Shown here in pieces: positions 54,313 to 61,146 of a DNA stretch of 64,000 bases (position 1 is its first letter; every line of letters begins with the position of its first letter). Origin of the DNA: an uncultured Bacteroidales bacterium (GTDB taxonomy: Bacteria > Bacteroidota > Bacteroidia > Bacteroidales > FEN-979); NCBI GenBank assembly GCA_903915465.1, contig CAIWTA010000246.1:1-64000 (forward strand), written 5' to 3'. The position numbers and the translations under genes were made by a program. The notes beneath the pieces were generated by a model that was not told the DNA's origin, did no database searches, and saw nothing but the letters and a program-made list of their open reading frames with translations.

Positions 54313-56991
54313 ATGGAAACTCCCCTGCAAACCGGTTATGAAGCCATCTCTTATTACGGCCACAAACCTTCCAGTAATATTGAAAACAGAGAGGAAAAAC
54401 GTTTGGCCTCCCCACGGGCAAGTGCAGCAAAAGAATTATATTTTGAAGCCAAATCCTCTGTTTCTATTGAATTCCCTTACTGGTACACCCGCCGATGGGA
54501 AGAACTTGAAGGTGAAATCCCGATAGTTCGTCGTGGAGAGTCTTTAAAAGCCGGTTTTGAGCACCTCACACCGGTCATTTATCCCGGAGAACTCTTGGTT
54601 ATGGGGAAAGCAGGTTATCTGCGCGGATCTTATCCGATGCCGTGGTTGTCGGAAGCCTTCTTCATGGCAGCAGAAGATAAGTTGTACCAGGAAGCTCTGA
54701 ATTCGGGAAAACTTACTGCCGACACCTTCACTACGGTTGGCAAAGGTGGCGGGAATGTGACCGGGAGCTCAGGCAATGTGATCTCTTTGGCCGGAAAATT
54801 CGGCTTGCGGGTTGAAGAACTTCCTGTCCTGCTGGAGGTAGCAAAAAAATGGTATGGCAAGTCGGTGGATGATGTCGGACATCGTTATGAACAGCTTGTC
54901 CCTGGCTATTCTGAGAAAGAAGCGCTGATGCGTTCAGTTATTTGTATGTTTGATTCGGGGTACACCCTTCCCCAGGGAAGAGAAGTGATCAACTTCTATT
55001 ATCCTTTACAATATGGCATCGACGGCATTATCCGGATTTGCGAAGAAGGAATTTCAGATACGGCCGGTTATCCTGATATGGACCGCATTTATTTCTATAC
55101 CGGCGTGATCAGCATGCTGAAAGGGATCCGGAGTTGGATTTCAAATTATGCGGAAGAAGCGAATTTTCTTGCTTCAATCGAAAAAGATGAGAAACAAAAA
55201 AATGAATATCTTGACATCGCAGAGCGCTTAGAATGGATTTCCACAAAACCTCCCAGGACGTTTCATGATGCCTTGCAAGTGATCTGGATTTTTCATGTGG
55301 CAGTGCTGAATGAAGATGCAATTTCCGGTTTGTCTCCTGGTCGTATCGGTCAGATCCTCTATCCTTATTGGAAAAGAGATATGGAGAAGGGCATTATCGA
55401 CCGGGAACGGACGTTGGAACTGCTGGAATGTATGCGGATCAAGTTCACCGAAATTGATTGCTTTGCTTCAATGGGTGTTGTCGGGGGCGTTCTTTCCGGA
55501 AACACCTTCAACAACCTTTGTATCGGCGGTTTGAAGAAAGACGGAACGCAGGCTGCCAATGAACTTGAGATGCTTATCCTCGAATCGGGTATCACATGCG
55601 ATACGCCACAGCCAACGCTTTCATTGCTATATGACGAAAAACTCCCGGAAGAATTTTTATTGAAAGGCGTGGAATGCACCAAAATCGGGACGGGTTACCC
55701 GGCTTGGGTAAACAACCAGGTAGCGATGGAATTTCTTCTGAACAACTACGGGCATGAGGGAATGCAGATAGAAGAAGCCCGTGCATGGGCCATTGGCGGA
55801 TGTCTTGAAACTTCTCCCGGGTCCTGGATGCCACTCAACCTCGATGGAAAGATCCACTGGATACCCGGCGGTTCAGCGCCTGCTACAAGCGTAGGAGTTC
55901 ATTTTTTATCCTTGCCAAAATTGTTGGAAGTTGTTCTGTTTGATGGGATGGATATGCGTTCCGGGCAGAGGATTTTCCCATCGCATGGTTTCGATCTCAA
56001 GACTTATGATGAATTGTGGAAAGCTTTCCAAACTTACTTTCACCGGGCGGTTCATGTTCTTACACTGACTAATAATATCCAACATGACGCATGGAGAAAA
56101 ATCTCCCCATCATTGGTCAATTCGATGCTTAAACCGGATTGCTTAGAGAGAGGGAAAGACATCGGGCAAATGGGAAGTCGCTACAATACCACTTTCAATG
56201 TGGAAAGCTGCGGTACAGCTAATCTTGTGAATTCTTTAGCTTCGCTGAAAAAGAATGTTTTCGACGAAAAGAATTTCTCCCTGAAAGATTACCAGTCAGC
56301 AATCTTAGCCAACTTTGGATATAAGACTGCACAGGAAACAGGTTCATATTCTCTTTTAGATCAGGTTGCAACAGCAGATTACCAGAACTGGAAAAAGATT
56401 CATAAATTTTCTCTTGAAGCTCCTAAATTCGGAAATGATGATTCTTATGTTGATTCTATCATGGCGCAATGGGAGAACTGGTTTTGTACGATGACACATG
56501 AATTCCGGTCACTCTATGACCAACCACTTTACGCCTGTCAGATATCTGTCTCAACGCATGGGCCCATGGGTGCCGTCACGCTTGCTTCTCCTGACGGACG
56601 TTTAGCAGGAACAACTTTCTCCGACGGATCAATGTCGGCTTCTCCGGGCACAGACAGAAATGGTCCTTACGCTTTGTTTGAATCTGCCAGTTGTTGGAAT
56701 CATTCGCTTTCACAAAATTCGCAGATGAACATCAAAATTCATCCTTCAGTTGTGAAAGGCAGGGAAGGTTCCCGTAAATTTCTTGAACTGATCCGTTCAT
56801 ATATGCGTAAAGGCGGATTTCACGTACAGTTTAATATTGTCGATTCCCGTATGCTGAAGCAGGCACAGGAAGAACCTGAAAAGTACCGCAGCCTTCTCGT
56901 CAGGGTAGCGGGGTTCACGCAATACTGGGTGGAATTGGGTAAACAGATCCAGGATGAGGTAATTTCCCGGACGGAATATGAAGAACTATAA
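54313..56991 (+). CDS. Glycyl radical enzyme, arylacetate (4-hydroxyphenylacetate)-decarboxylase-like large subunit
   Basis: 892 aa; Cys-x-Glu active-site loop AWAIGGCLETSPGSW; C-terminal glycyl radical motif RVAGFTQYWVELGKQIQDEVISRTEYEEL. Confidence 0.88.
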   Translation: METPLQTGYEAISYYGHKPSSNIENREEKRLASPRASAAKELYFEAKSSVSIEFPYWYTRRWEELEGEIPIVRRGESLKAGFEHLTPVIYPGELLVMGKAGYLRGSYPMPWLSEAFFMAAEDKLYQEALNSGKLTADTFTTVGKGGGNVTGSSGNVISLAGKFGLRVEELPVLLEVAKKWYGKSVDDVGHRYEQLVPGYSEKEALMRSVICMFDSGYTLPQGREVINFYYPLQYGIDGIIRICEEGISDTAGYPDMDRIYFYTGVISMLKGIRSWISNYAEEANFLASIEKDEKQKNEYLDIAERLEWISTKPPRTFHDALQVIWIFHVAVLNEDAISGLSPGRIGQILYPYWKRDMEKGIIDRERTLELLECMRIKFTEIDCFASMGVVGGVLSGNTFNNLCIGGLKKDGTQAANELEMLILESGITCDTPQPTLSLLYDEKLPEEFLLKGVECTKIGTGYPAWVNNQVAMEFLLNNYGHEGMQIEEARAWAIGGCLETSPGSWMPLNLDGKIHWIPGGSAPATSVGVHFLSLPKLLEVVLFDGMDMRSGQRIFPSHGFDLKTYDELWKAFQTYFHRAVHVLTLTNNIQHDAWRKISPSLVNSMLKPDCLERGKDIGQMGSRYNTTFNVESCGTANLVNSLASLKKNVFDEKNFSLKDYQSAILANFGYKTAQETGSYSLLDQVATADYQNWKKIHKFSLEAPKFGNDDSYVDSIMAQWENWFCTMTHEFRSLYDQPLYACQISVSTHGPMGAVTLASPDGRLAGTTFSDGSMSASPGTDRNGPYALFESASCWNHSLSQNSQMNIKIHPSVVKGREGSRKFLELIRSYMRKGGFHVQFNIVDSRMLKQAQEEPEKYRSLLVRVAGFTQYWVELGKQIQDEVISRTEYEEL

Positions 56992-57008
56992 GTCTTAACA
57001 GATCGATC

Positions 57009-57263
57009 ATGGAATACAGTTGCAAGGATTGCAGATTTTACCTCCCTGTAGATGTCTTTAAGGGATTATGCAAGATGGAGAAGACATCCATTACACCGGA
57101 TGACCTTTCCTGTAGTAAATTCGAACGCCAACCAAAATGTAAATTCTGTACTCACTACAGTGTTGAGAAAGATTTTTTGGGTAAATGCATGGGAACTACT
57201 ATTACCAGTCCCGATCTGAATGCTTCCAAATGTGACGACTTCACATGGGTACACCTCAACTGA
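57009..57263 (+). CDS. Small Fe-S subunit (HpdC-like, two internally repeated four-Cys modules)
   Basis: 84 aa; Cys 5, 8, 21, 35 and 44, 47, 60, 75; lies between GRE and activase. Confidence 0.8.
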   Translation: MEYSCKDCRFYLPVDVFKGLCKMEKTSITPDDLSCSKFERQPKCKFCTHYSVEKDFLGKCMGTTITSPDLNASKCDDFTWVHLN

Positions 57264-58180
57264 CAGGCGGTTATCTCTTCGACATCCAGGGTTTTTCTAT
57301 ACATGATGGACCGGGTTGCAGGACGCTGATCTTTTTGAAAGGCTGTCCGATGCGATGTGAATGGTGCTCCAATCCCGAAGGCATCCGTCCTTTTTCGGAG
57401 CCCTTATACAATCCCTCAAAATGCACGATGGATCTGCTTTGCAAAGAAGCATGTCCGTATGAAGCCATCACCGTTGCGGATCAATCACTCCTCATCAACC
57501 GTGACATTTGCAGAACTTGCTCCACCAATGCGTGCATGGATGCCTGTTTCACGGGAGCCATCCGGAAAGCAGGTTATTTTATCACTATGGCAGATCTGTT
57601 CAAGAAAATCCAACGCGATCGCCAATATTGGGGAGCAAATGGCGGTATCACGCTGACTGGCGGAGAACCGTTTTTACAACCGGATTTTGCCAAAGCCATC
57701 CTGAAAAAATGTTTTGAATCTTTCATTCACACATCGGTAGAAACCTGCGGCAACATTCCATGGGGAAACATCAGTCAGAGCTTAGATTGGCTAGATTGGA
57801 TCTTTTTCGATCTTAAACATATCAACCCCGTCAAACATAAAAAGGCCACCGGTACAACCAACAACAATGTGTTGAAAAATGCCAGGGTTCTTGCAGAGAA
57901 GTTTCCTGGTCGGCTGATTTTCCGAATCCCATTGATACCAGGTTTTAATGATGATGAAAATTCCCTTTCGGAATTAGCAGAATTCATCTTATCCACCGGA
58001 AAAGAGGAAGTGAACATAATTCCTGCGCACCACATGGGAAGAGAAAAATACAATCTTCTCGGACAAAGTTATTATACAAAAGAATTCAAAATCCCTTCAG
58101 CCGACGACCTTTTCAAGGCTTCACAATATTTCACTAAAGCCGGTATCACCTGCTATTTGGGCAGTGATACTCCATTCTGA
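57245..58180 (+). CDS. Glycyl radical enzyme activating protein (radical SAM)
   Basis: FDIQGFSIHDGPGCRTLIFLKGCPMRCEWCSNPEG (CxxxCxxC); ferredoxin-like insert CTMDLLCKEACP...CRTCSTNACMDAC; GGITLTGGEPFLQPDFA. Confidence 0.95.
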   Translation: MGTPQLTGGYLFDIQGFSIHDGPGCRTLIFLKGCPMRCEWCSNPEGIRPFSEPLYNPSKCTMDLLCKEACPYEAITVADQSLLINRDICRTCSTNACMDACFTGAIRKAGYFITMADLFKKIQRDRQYWGANGGITLTGGEPFLQPDFAKAILKKCFESFIHTSVETCGNIPWGNISQSLDWLDWIFFDLKHINPVKHKKATGTTNNNVLKNARVLAEKFPGRLIFRIPLIPGFNDDENSLSELAEFILSTGKEEVNIIPAHHMGREKYNLLGQSYYTKEFKIPSADDLFKASQYFTKAGITCYLGSDTPF

Positions 58181-58454: not shown

Positions 58455-59780
58455 ATGAAGGATACTCCCATAAATCACGAAATAGTTACTAAGCAAATTC
58501 GCGAGAGCAAGATCAGGAATATCGGAAAAGCTTCAATTCGCGAAGTCAAGCTGCTGATCAACAAGATCGAGAAAGAGACAGGCGAAAAGTTTGTCAGAAT
58601 GGAAATGGGGGTCCCTGGGTTGACTCCTCCGCAGATCGGAATAGACGCTGAGATTAAAGCACTTAATGAAGGTGTTGCAGCTATTTACCCGGATATTGAA
58701 GGAACTCACATTCTGAAAAAAGAAGTAGCCCGTTTTGTTAAATTATTTCTCGATGTAGATGTCGATGAAGCCAATTGTATACCAACTGTAGGTTCTATGC
58801 AGGGCGGGTTTGCTGCGTTTCTTACGCTTTCAAGGATTAACAAAGAGCGTAATACTACGCTACTGGTTGACCCGGGATTTCCGGTTCACCGCCAGCAGCA
58901 TATCGTCCTTGGCCAAAAGTTTGAATCTTTCGATGTCTATGATTATCGTGGAGAGAAACTCCGCGACAAATTGGAATCAATTCTCTCAAAAGGACAAATT
59001 CATTCAATCCTCTATTCTAACCCAAACAATCCTTCCTGGATATGTTTTACGCCACATGAGCTGCAGATCTTCGGGGAAATGGCAAATAAATACAACGTGA
59101 TTATTCTCGAAGATCTTGCTTATTTCGGCATGGATTTCCGGAAAGATTATTCGAAACCAGGTGTTCCACCTTTTCAGCCCACTGTTGCAAAATACACCGA
59201 CAACTTCATCCTGCTGATCTCAAGTTCGAAAGCCTTCAGTTATGCCGGGCAACGGGTCGCTTCCATGGTAATCTCCAATAAGATTTTCAATGCCCAAATG
59301 CCGGATCTTCTTCGGTATTATTCCACCGATATTTTTGGAAGAGCACTTATTTATGGAACCATTTATGCACTAAGTGCCGGAACCAGCCATTCTGCACAAT
59401 ACGGACTGGCAGCCATGCTGAAAGCCGTAAACGACGGAACATACAACTTTGTGGAATACGTCCGGGAATATGGTGAAAAAGCCAAGATCATGAAGAAACT
59501 ATTCTTAGATAATGGTTTTCATATTGTGTATGACAAAGATGAAGGGGGTGTTCCCATTGCCGATGGGTTTTATTTCACCTTCGCATATCCTGGTTTTACG
59601 GGCGAAGAGCTGCTTGAAGAGTTGCTCTATTACGGGATCAGCGCAATTGCCCTTTCCATTACCGGCAGCGAACGCAAGGAAGGACTTCGTGCTTGTGTTT
59701 CATTGGTGCATCGCAGCCAATTCCCGACACTGGAAGCGAGGTTGAAAACATTCCTGGAAAACCATCCGGTAAAGAAATAA
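58455..59780 (+). CDS. PLP-dependent aminotransferase (class I/II fold)
   Basis: YPDIEGTHILKKEVARFV, YSNPNNPSWICFTPHELQ, EDLAYFGMDFR, SSSKAFSYAGQRVASMV (PLP-Lys), GLRACVSLVHR. Confidence 0.9.
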   Translation: MKDTPINHEIVTKQIRESKIRNIGKASIREVKLLINKIEKETGEKFVRMEMGVPGLTPPQIGIDAEIKALNEGVAAIYPDIEGTHILKKEVARFVKLFLDVDVDEANCIPTVGSMQGGFAAFLTLSRINKERNTTLLVDPGFPVHRQQHIVLGQKFESFDVYDYRGEKLRDKLESILSKGQIHSILYSNPNNPSWICFTPHELQIFGEMANKYNVIILEDLAYFGMDFRKDYSKPGVPPFQPTVAKYTDNFILLISSSKAFSYAGQRVASMVISNKIFNAQMPDLLRYYSTDIFGRALIYGTIYALSAGTSHSAQYGLAAMLKAVNDGTYNFVEYVREYGEKAKIMKKLFLDNGFHIVYDKDEGGVPIADGFYFTFAYPGFTGEELLEELLYYGISAIALSITGSERKEGLRACVSLVHRSQFPTLEARLKTFLENHPVKK

Positions 59781-59904
59781 CGAAATAAAAGGCTGGCGCG
59801 TTTTTTTATCGGCAAATTAAATTATGCCGAGCACAACTATTGACAGCAAGATCTTCTTCCATATTACCTTTCTGAAAAAATCGGATTAACAGCCCCACCC
59901 CCTG

Positions 59905-60046
59905 CCCCTCCCAATTTGGGGAGGGGGTAAGGAGAATAATGACACAGTTGCTCCTCCCAATTTGGGGAGGGGGTAAGGAGAATAATGACACACAGTTGCT
60001 CCTCCCAATTTGGGGAGTGGGTAAGGAGAATAATGACACACAGTTG
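59905..60046. repeat. Three tandem copies of a ~48-bp repeat (ctcctcccaatttggggagggggtaaggagaataatgacacacagttg)
   Basis: Units 59905-59950 (46 bp), 59951-59998 (48 bp), 59999-60046 (48 bp), near-identical; each has the hairpin ctccccaaattgggag-type palindrome. Confidence 0.92.
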
Positions 60047-60081
60047 CTCCTCCCCCGAATGGGGGAGGTCGGGAGGGGGCT
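60047..60081. repeat. Left copy of 35-bp direct repeat flanking DUF559 gene
   Basis: ctcctcccccgaatgggggaggtcgggagggggct. Confidence 0.85.
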
Positions 60082-60119
60082 TTGTAATTAGTAAGTACAG
60101 ATCATTATTTCGTACAAGA

Positions 60120-60512
60120 ATGGTAAAACTAATAGGGAAAGAAGAGTATCCTTTTTATTTCGGGGCAAAGCCAATAGTACTCAGGCTGGCAGGGGATCTC
60201 AGACGAAATATGACAAATGCAGAAAAACTGCTTTGGAAGCATTTAAGAAACAGAAAAATGGATGGTCTCCGTTTCAGGAGGCAGCATCCAATTGATGAGT
60301 TCATCGTTGATTTTTTTTGTTACGAAGCAATGCTGGTAATCGAAGTGGATGGAGGAATACACAATTCAAAGGAACAAAAAGAAAGGGATGAAGAAAGAAC
60401 AAAAATTATGAACCGGCATGGATTGAAAGTCATCCGATTTTCAAACGAAGATGTGCAATACAGAATGATGCAAGTGATTTCCCAGATCCGGAAAAATATA
60501 CAGGGTCTTTAG
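60120..60512 (+). CDS. DUF559 (Vsr-like fold) endonuclease-domain protein
   Basis: ATG 60120 preferred over 59985, which starts inside the repeats; NMTNAEKLLWKHLRNRKMDGLRFRRQHPIDEFIVDFFCYEAMLVIEVDGGIHNSKEQKERDEERTKIMNRHGLKVIRFSNEDV. Confidence 0.9.
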   Translation: MVKLIGKEEYPFYFGAKPIVLRLAGDLRRNMTNAEKLLWKHLRNRKMDGLRFRRQHPIDEFIVDFFCYEAMLVIEVDGGIHNSKEQKERDEERTKIMNRHGLKVIRFSNEDVQYRMMQVISQIRKNIQGL

Positions 60513-60534
60513 TGCAATTATTGCCTAATAATTG

Positions 60535-60569
60535 CTCCTCCCCCGTGTGGGGGAGGTCGGGAGGGGGCT
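60535..60569. repeat. Right copy of 35-bp direct repeat flanking DUF559 gene
   Basis: ctcctcccccgtgtgggggaggtcgggagggggct, 33/35 identical to 60047-60081. Confidence 0.85.
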
Positions 60570-60594
60570 GTTGGTTGAATGTCGGGAGAGGGCT

Positions 60595-61146
60595 TTAATT
60601 CAACTTATCCAGAACCAGATCAACTGTTATTTCAATGGATTTCGATATACTATTGGCTACAGCTCCCGGAATCTTAACACTATAGTCGGCCAATAAGATA
60701 GTAAACTTCGCTTTCCCGGTAATTTTTGTTCCCTTGACCTCAAATGTTCCTTTTTCCTTGACCGGTTGCGTTACACCGTGAATAGTGAGTTTCCCTTCAA
60801 CCATCGCCTCGTACACACCGTCTTTGCCAATATTGACATCTTTTATGTTGGTTACTTTACCTAAAAAAGTGGCATTGGGAAATTTATCTGATTCAAGATA
60901 GTTTTCATTGAAATGTTCCTGCATCAGGGCCTTCTCAAATTGAAATGATTTAACTAAAACCCTGAATACAAAATCACCGGTTGCAGCATCAAATGCAGCA
61001 TTTACCTGCCGGTTGTGGGCTTCAATCTTTTCCAGCTGACTGTCTGAATAGAATTTAATATGTCCTGTTTTGGTTATAAATTTTTGCGCATCAGCGGCGA
61101 ATGAGACAATCGAAAGACAGAAAAATACCAACATCAGTTTTTTCAT
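60595..61146 (-). CDS. YceI family protein
   Basis: Signal peptide; GHIKFYSDSQLEKIEAHNRQVNAAFDAATGDFVFRVLVKSFQFEKALMQEHFNENYLESDKFPNATFLGKV; LTIHGVTQPVKEKGTFEVKG. Confidence 0.9.
   Translation of the reverse strand: MKKLMLVFFCLSIVSFAADAQKFITKTGHIKFYSDSQLEKIEAHNRQVNAAFDAATGDFVFRVLVKSFQFEKALMQEHFNENYLESDKFPNATFLGKVTNIKDVNIGKDGVYEAMVEGKLTIHGVTQPVKEKGTFEVKGTKITGKAKFTILLADYSVKIPGAVANSISKSIEITVDLVLDKLN

Follow-up and report, generated by a model that had tools for sequence, protein, structure and literature searches.

A DUF559 nuclease gene bounded by inverted hairpin units: a probable mobile cassette with relatives inserted in frame in protein genes

A stretch of 64,000 nucleotides from an uncultured Bacteroidales bacterium (hereafter the window) contains a small DUF559 gene lying among palindromic repeats, and this region probably represents one copy of a compact mobile element, a cassette in which inverted hairpin/triplex ends surround a single DUF559 nuclease on which movement would depend. 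The association of DUF559 genes with such units is real and general, and no published account of it was found in the literature searched, where papers naming DUF559 do so outside their titles and abstracts, and those of them consulted make no connection with such repeats. The integrity of the cassette, its presence or absence at given sites, its derivatives, the co-divergence of nuclease and units and the existence of site-specific nuclease lineages are documented by sequence comparison, from which we infer the chemistry of cleavage and transposition.

The 35-bp sequences at 60047–60081 and 60535–60569 match at 33 of 35 positions in the same orientation, the two differences being loop bases (GAAT/GTGT). 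A preliminary description had reported these near-identical direct repeats, a third fragment at about 60581 and a DUF559 gene as the sole gene between the repeats, and all three observations were confirmed. It had overlooked the purine tail of the repeats, the hairpins to their left and an inverted end unit, so that the boundary is wider than was proposed there. In a motif scan, each repeat consisted of a hairpin and a mirror-image purine tail, that is, an intrastrand triplex-type motif, and three such motifs were located around the gene (Table 1), all with the order pyrimidine arm, loop, purine arm, spacer and mirror purine arm. DNA folding took in the hairpin part of the units alone, the triplex being putative and deduced from the motif. 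Elsewhere in the window (positions 1–59500), a motif of this class was present in 1 of 149 pieces of 400 bp, and the units around the gene are therefore not due to chance. Hairpin repeats of 48 nt occupy positions 59896–60037, to the left of the repeat at 60047, and their first copy overlaps the minus-strand triplex unit; repeat searches also identified the outermost arms, AACAGCCCCACCCC and GGGAGGGGGCTGTT (60559–60572), as an inverted pair. Because of these inverted arms and the further units on the left, the cassette is best read as extending from about 59888 to 60572. The inverted outer units are likelier to delimit it than the direct pair at 60047/60535 favored in the preliminary description; the repeats look direct because each core is palindromic and the left end has one more unit on its inner side. 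The cassette sits between convergent genes, and a search for structured RNA at 59700–60700 gave no Rfam match. At some distance, upstream of an aminotransferase gene, positions 54313–58180 were read by eye as coding for a glycyl-radical-enzyme-like protein of 892 aa, together with a radical-SAM activase-like protein and a small Cys-rich ORF.

Table 1. Features of the DUF559 cassette and its surroundings in the window
Feature	Position	Strand	Basis
Left terminal unit, inverted	59888–59927	-	Outer tail arm 59888–59901 and hairpin/triplex motif 59895–59927; repeat search, triplex scan
Two tandem 48-nt hairpin repeats; weaker first copy 59896–59943	59942–60037	+	Repeat search
Extra internal unit (left repeat of the preliminary description)	60047–60081	+	Triplex motif 60048–60080; DNA hairpin -10.1 kcal/mol
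DUF559 EDxHD-type nuclease gene, 130 aa	60120–60512	+	PF04480, E=2e-35; start common to relatives; model and fold match
Right terminal unit: hairpin and outward tail GGGAGGGGGCTGTT	60535–60572	+	Triplex motif 60536–60568; hairpin -10.1 kcal/mol, z -2.8
Partial copy of another unit, only its tail (GTCGGGAGAGGGCTTT)	60581–60596	+	Sequence match

The ATG start of the nuclease gene was set by comparison with relatives. In HMM searches the DUF559 profile matched two structures, 3hrl at E=8e-34 and 3r3p, which is the homing endonuclease I-Bth0305I, at E=1.5e-6. A structure model (pLDDT 80) likewise retrieved 3hrl and 3r3p first and Vsr more weakly in Foldseek, with a TM-score of 0.76 by target length against I-Bth0305I. 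Residues E35, D64, D77, H81, D90 and R93 are invariant across 72 homologues and include putative acidic/His catalytic residues. Profile and model alike make the predicted nuclease a relative of I-Bth0305I, a homing endonuclease of the EDxHD type. The Caulobacter DUF559 protein VsrA is required for an SOS response and has been proposed to make double-strand breaks in vivo (PMC12907096).

At one orthologous intergenic site of a related genus, some alleles were filled, others internally deleted and others empty. Genome G021 carries a full cassette, G013 the two ends with a shortened remnant of DUF559 between them and G016 unit remnants; unit-free short intergenic DNA occupies the same site in G014, G018, G020, G022, G023, G024, G025 and G026. 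Since the empty alleles are unit-free, a resident unit is seemingly not needed for insertion, and the deleted alleles suggest that cassettes can leave units behind, singly or in pairs. At the locus of the window, sister genomes provided no clean empty site for the resident copy, their gene order being disrupted to its left and right. The preliminary description had read the region as a small cassette delimited by repeats, which the encoded nuclease, or host functions acting on the repeats, might mobilise. The cassette itself held up, as did its mobility in relatives, to which the filled, deleted and empty alleles, patchy in-frame insertions and the co-divergence of nuclease and repeats all point; mobilisation would be the work of the nuclease itself.

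DUF559 was detected in 222 of 396 sampled Bacteroidota genomes, and many of the strongest matches lay inside open frames of about 850–1480 codons. The interrupted genes, named from reading their sequences rather than from a family scan, encode MetH, LeuRS, IleRS, RecG, HsdR, HsdM, HemF, methylmalonyl-CoA mutase and others, and the units are translated within them (e.g. PPAPEGGV...APPSGAGGAG in MetH). Of the roughly 144 MetH genes in one genus (150 genomes), most are uninterrupted and 16 contain DUF559 in frame; the MetH linker measured 22–24 aa in the uninterrupted copies read vs 155–175 aa in 15 whole interrupted ones. Examined by eye, the insertions begin with KRPPAP or SPPTP and end with APPSGAGGAG, and a short stretch of the linker is replaced. 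No target-site duplication was obvious on inspection at the MetH site or at the G021 intergenic site. On the MetH tree of the genus the insertion is scattered, needing at least 9 gains or losses, and on the DUF559 tree sequences from different families cluster when they share a host site, as do the MetH-site nucleases of f7, f18, f36 and f47. Site-wise clades combined with patchy presence in MetH are the pattern expected of homing, and on these trees the in-gene lineages look like elements homing to one site (the MetH linker, loops of LeuRS) with no self-splicing intron or intein. Purifying selection acts on the DUF559 of these lineages (dN/dS 0.06–0.27). An intein was considered and rejected, the ends of the MetH insertions, read by eye, being devoid of splicing residues (Cys/Ser start, His-Asn end). 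A solo palindrome as precursor at the MetH site was also discarded, none being present in 51 uninterrupted genomes read.

Further configurations were observed within genes. Two DUF559 cassettes occupy different sites of a single MetH frame in G564 (L195) and G571 (L205), and their second-site nucleases are closest to two first-site nucleases of other genomes, which suggests a switch of site. Solo units with no DUF559 are translated in frame in IleRS- or HsdR-like genes at L041, L145 and L150, and peptides of such units (e.g. SPAPSNSPQGGG, KSSPTGRGQGEG) resemble Rickettsia palindromic elements.

Association of units with the nuclease was quantified across the sampled Bacteroidota genomes, most of those compared being draft assemblies. 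A triplex-type unit lay within 400 bp of free-standing DUF559 genes on at least one side in 94% and on both sides in 88% of cases (n=50); for in-gene DUF559s the values were 69% for at least one side and 38% for both (n=65). At control loci the triplex scan found no units in three sets (0/29, 0/11 and 0/30; total 0/70), the set of 11 being Y1_Tnp loci. Inverted similarity of the two flanks reached the threshold at 32 of 60 DUF559 loci and at 0/29 aminotransferase loci; among mismatched flank pairs the share was 4%. In genomes of the same family as the window's, the flanks of DUF559 genes are frequently near-perfect inverted repeats, such as CACCTCAACCCCCGGCCCCTTCTCC-loop-GGAGAAGGGGAG before the gene with its reverse complement after it; in relatives, terminal inverted repeats and empty sites thus occur as they do for insertion sequences and MITEs. 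Some observations count against reading the region as a mobile cassette. Nearest units around DUF559 are found in both orientations, direct pairs like that of the window included, and the ends are therefore not uniform. Moreover, a second DUF559 of the window's own genome (L002, G000:C179:4105-4446), which is of another lineage, has no units; this gene lies close to the end of its contig, beside a transposase-like ORF. At L153, L157, L159 and L160, DUF559 is flanked by longer direct repeats (flank alignment scores 84 to 196), which in part correspond to several tandem palindromes.

An alternative explanation is that triplex units are recombination hot spots moved by host functions, which captured DUF559 as a Vsr-like repair or defence gene. 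Triplex motifs have been tied to instability in E. coli (PMC4666352), and a role in very-short-patch repair has been proposed for a Caulobacter DUF559 protein (PMC12907096). However, all 8 unit pairs lying 150–1000 bp apart among those listed enclose DUF559 or a remnant of it, the nuclease clades are specific to their host site, and unit type follows nuclease type. In comparisons between different genomes, nuclease identity correlated with unit similarity (Spearman rho 0.46, the highest of 500 permutations reaching 0.17), figures for co-divergence and unit counts partly reflecting shared ancestry, which inflates some of them. Units are shared (similarity 0.79–0.85) between DUF559s of different genomes whose identity is 60% or more, but not (0.37) between those of 40–50% identity in one genome; unit sequence co-diverges with the nuclease and not with the host genome. 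Capture by host-driven hot spots is consequently unlikely.

Less probable still is a REP-like nature of the units, in which RAYT (Y1_Tnp) transposases would move them and DUF559 would be a passenger in their midst. Palindromes accompanied by a cognate nuclease follow the known REP logic of RAYTs, Y1_Tnp is common in the family (34 of 43 genomes), and genomes with more Y1_Tnp genes tend to have more units (rho 0.55 overall, 0.46 when genus g2 is left out). Against it, the Y1_Tnp loci scanned were free of units, Y1_Tnp genes of the window's own genome lie on other contigs than the window units, and genus g2 has Y1_Tnp in 8 of 8 genomes, yet neither unit type and no credible DUF559. Conversely, DUF559 occurs with no Y1_Tnp in G012, G015, G018, G036, G039 and G040, and it is with DUF559 that the units co-diverge. 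RAYT as the driver was rejected, the Y1_Tnp genes being devoid of units. Over the 43 family genomes, the two unit types numbered 317 copies in 28 genomes with DUF559 vs 12 in 15 genomes lacking it (p=5e-6; p=0.003 once the unit-free g2 is left out). Widespread occurrence of the repeat in the absence of DUF559, which the preliminary description had named as evidence against its reading, was borne out in half: solo units exist, but nearly all are in genomes that possess DUF559. The idea that the repeats are ordinary bidirectional terminators of convergent genes, DUF559 being an unremarkable resident, draws on the position of the window cassette and on the stable hairpins formed by the units, and is highly improbable given that no T run follows the window hairpins, that units also occur in frame within coding sequence and are absent from all control loci, and that an earlier study, as cited in PMC4666352, found the E. 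coli motif to have neither promoter nor terminator activity.

The same pattern of units and DUF559 was found on plasmids of Deinococcus and Alphaproteobacteria. On a Deinococcus psychrotolerans plasmid a 70-bp near-perfect inverted repeat surrounds DUF559 between paaD and paaZ, and plasmid copies of Azospirillum, Sphingobium, Sphingomonas and Picosynechococcus have related units. On plasmids of Synechocystis sp. B12 (L277, L285), DUF559 with unit-like flanks lies beside or inside DNA-methyltransferase-type genes (DUF1156, PglX); in Bacteroidota, restriction genes similarly have DUF559 beside or inside them. One DUF559 of the free lineage was scanned against viral contigs, and no carriage by phages was found. 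The DUF559 gene of E. coli MG1655, ycjD, lies 168 bp from triplex motif no. 9 of PMC4666352; 80% or more of the ycjD region is matched in 3334 of 5426 E. coli genomes (about 61%). Use of ycjD as a simple empty-site test was abandoned, as two ycjD-less strains read hold a TetR regulator and an efflux gene by fabI; the fabI–sapF interval (L286–L288) is a variable site.

Movement of the cassette could proceed as follows. The DUF559 nuclease would recognise its own end units, its target or both, and would make a nick or a double-strand break, upon which host repair or recombination would copy or paste the cassette, perhaps by way of hairpins or triplexes formed in single-stranded DNA. The lack of a clear target duplication, together with the replacement of part of the MetH linker seen by inspection, fits break repair better than a DDE transposase. 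We tentatively put forward, at somewhat short of even confidence, that DUF559 cassettes may form a distinct class of mobile elements, with a Vsr/EDxHD-type nuclease as sole enzyme, self-folding triplex ends and triplex or palindromic repeats as non-autonomous offspring, some lineages of which home in frame into essential genes without splicing, the nuclease being tolerated as a domain of the host protein. If so, they would be non-splicing selfish elements that persist within essential genes, and through them housekeeping proteins could acquire whole extra domains. The association may also explain the spread of widespread bacterial repeats that have no known mobiliser: triplex-type palindromes are common in bacteria, and a nuclease between two copies makes their origin testable, including at E. 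coli ycjD.

Several known systems share traits with these cassettes. The intrastrand triplex motifs TM/PIT have the same succession of arms, loop and spacer as the units; however, PMC4666352 reports no mobility function near them, whereas here a nuclease gene is regularly enclosed, and the exact E. coli consensus (CCCTCNCCC...) is absent, the window units reading CCTCCCCC/GGGGGAGG/GGGAGGGGG. With MITEs and insertion sequences the cassettes have in common terminal inverted repeats, empty sites and internally deleted derivatives, but contain neither a DDE, Y1 or serine recombinase nor a clear target-site duplication. Rickettsia palindromic elements are palindromes translated in frame within host proteins, as are the DUF559 units; they encode no enzyme, whereas DUF559 cassettes carry a nuclease domain between the palindromes. 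EDxHD homing endonucleases such as I-Bth0305I resemble the DUF559 nucleases in homology, fold and the patchy occurrence of site-specific lineages in orthologous genes; unlike them, the cassettes have no intron or intein, are bounded by hairpin/triplex units and are in many cases intergenic, cleavage by DUF559 being putative. In REP/REPIN–RAYT (TnpA-REP) systems, asymmetrically tailed short palindromes likewise flank a cognate nuclease gene, and dispersed solo copies, deletion derivatives and paired units occur; by contrast, the enzyme of the cassettes is an EDxHD/Vsr-type nuclease and not a Y1 HUH transposase, the window units have no GTAG or CGTC tag, and the cassettes also enter genes in frame. 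The closest relatives of DUF559 cassettes are thus REP–RAYT systems by logic and EDxHD homing endonucleases by enzyme.
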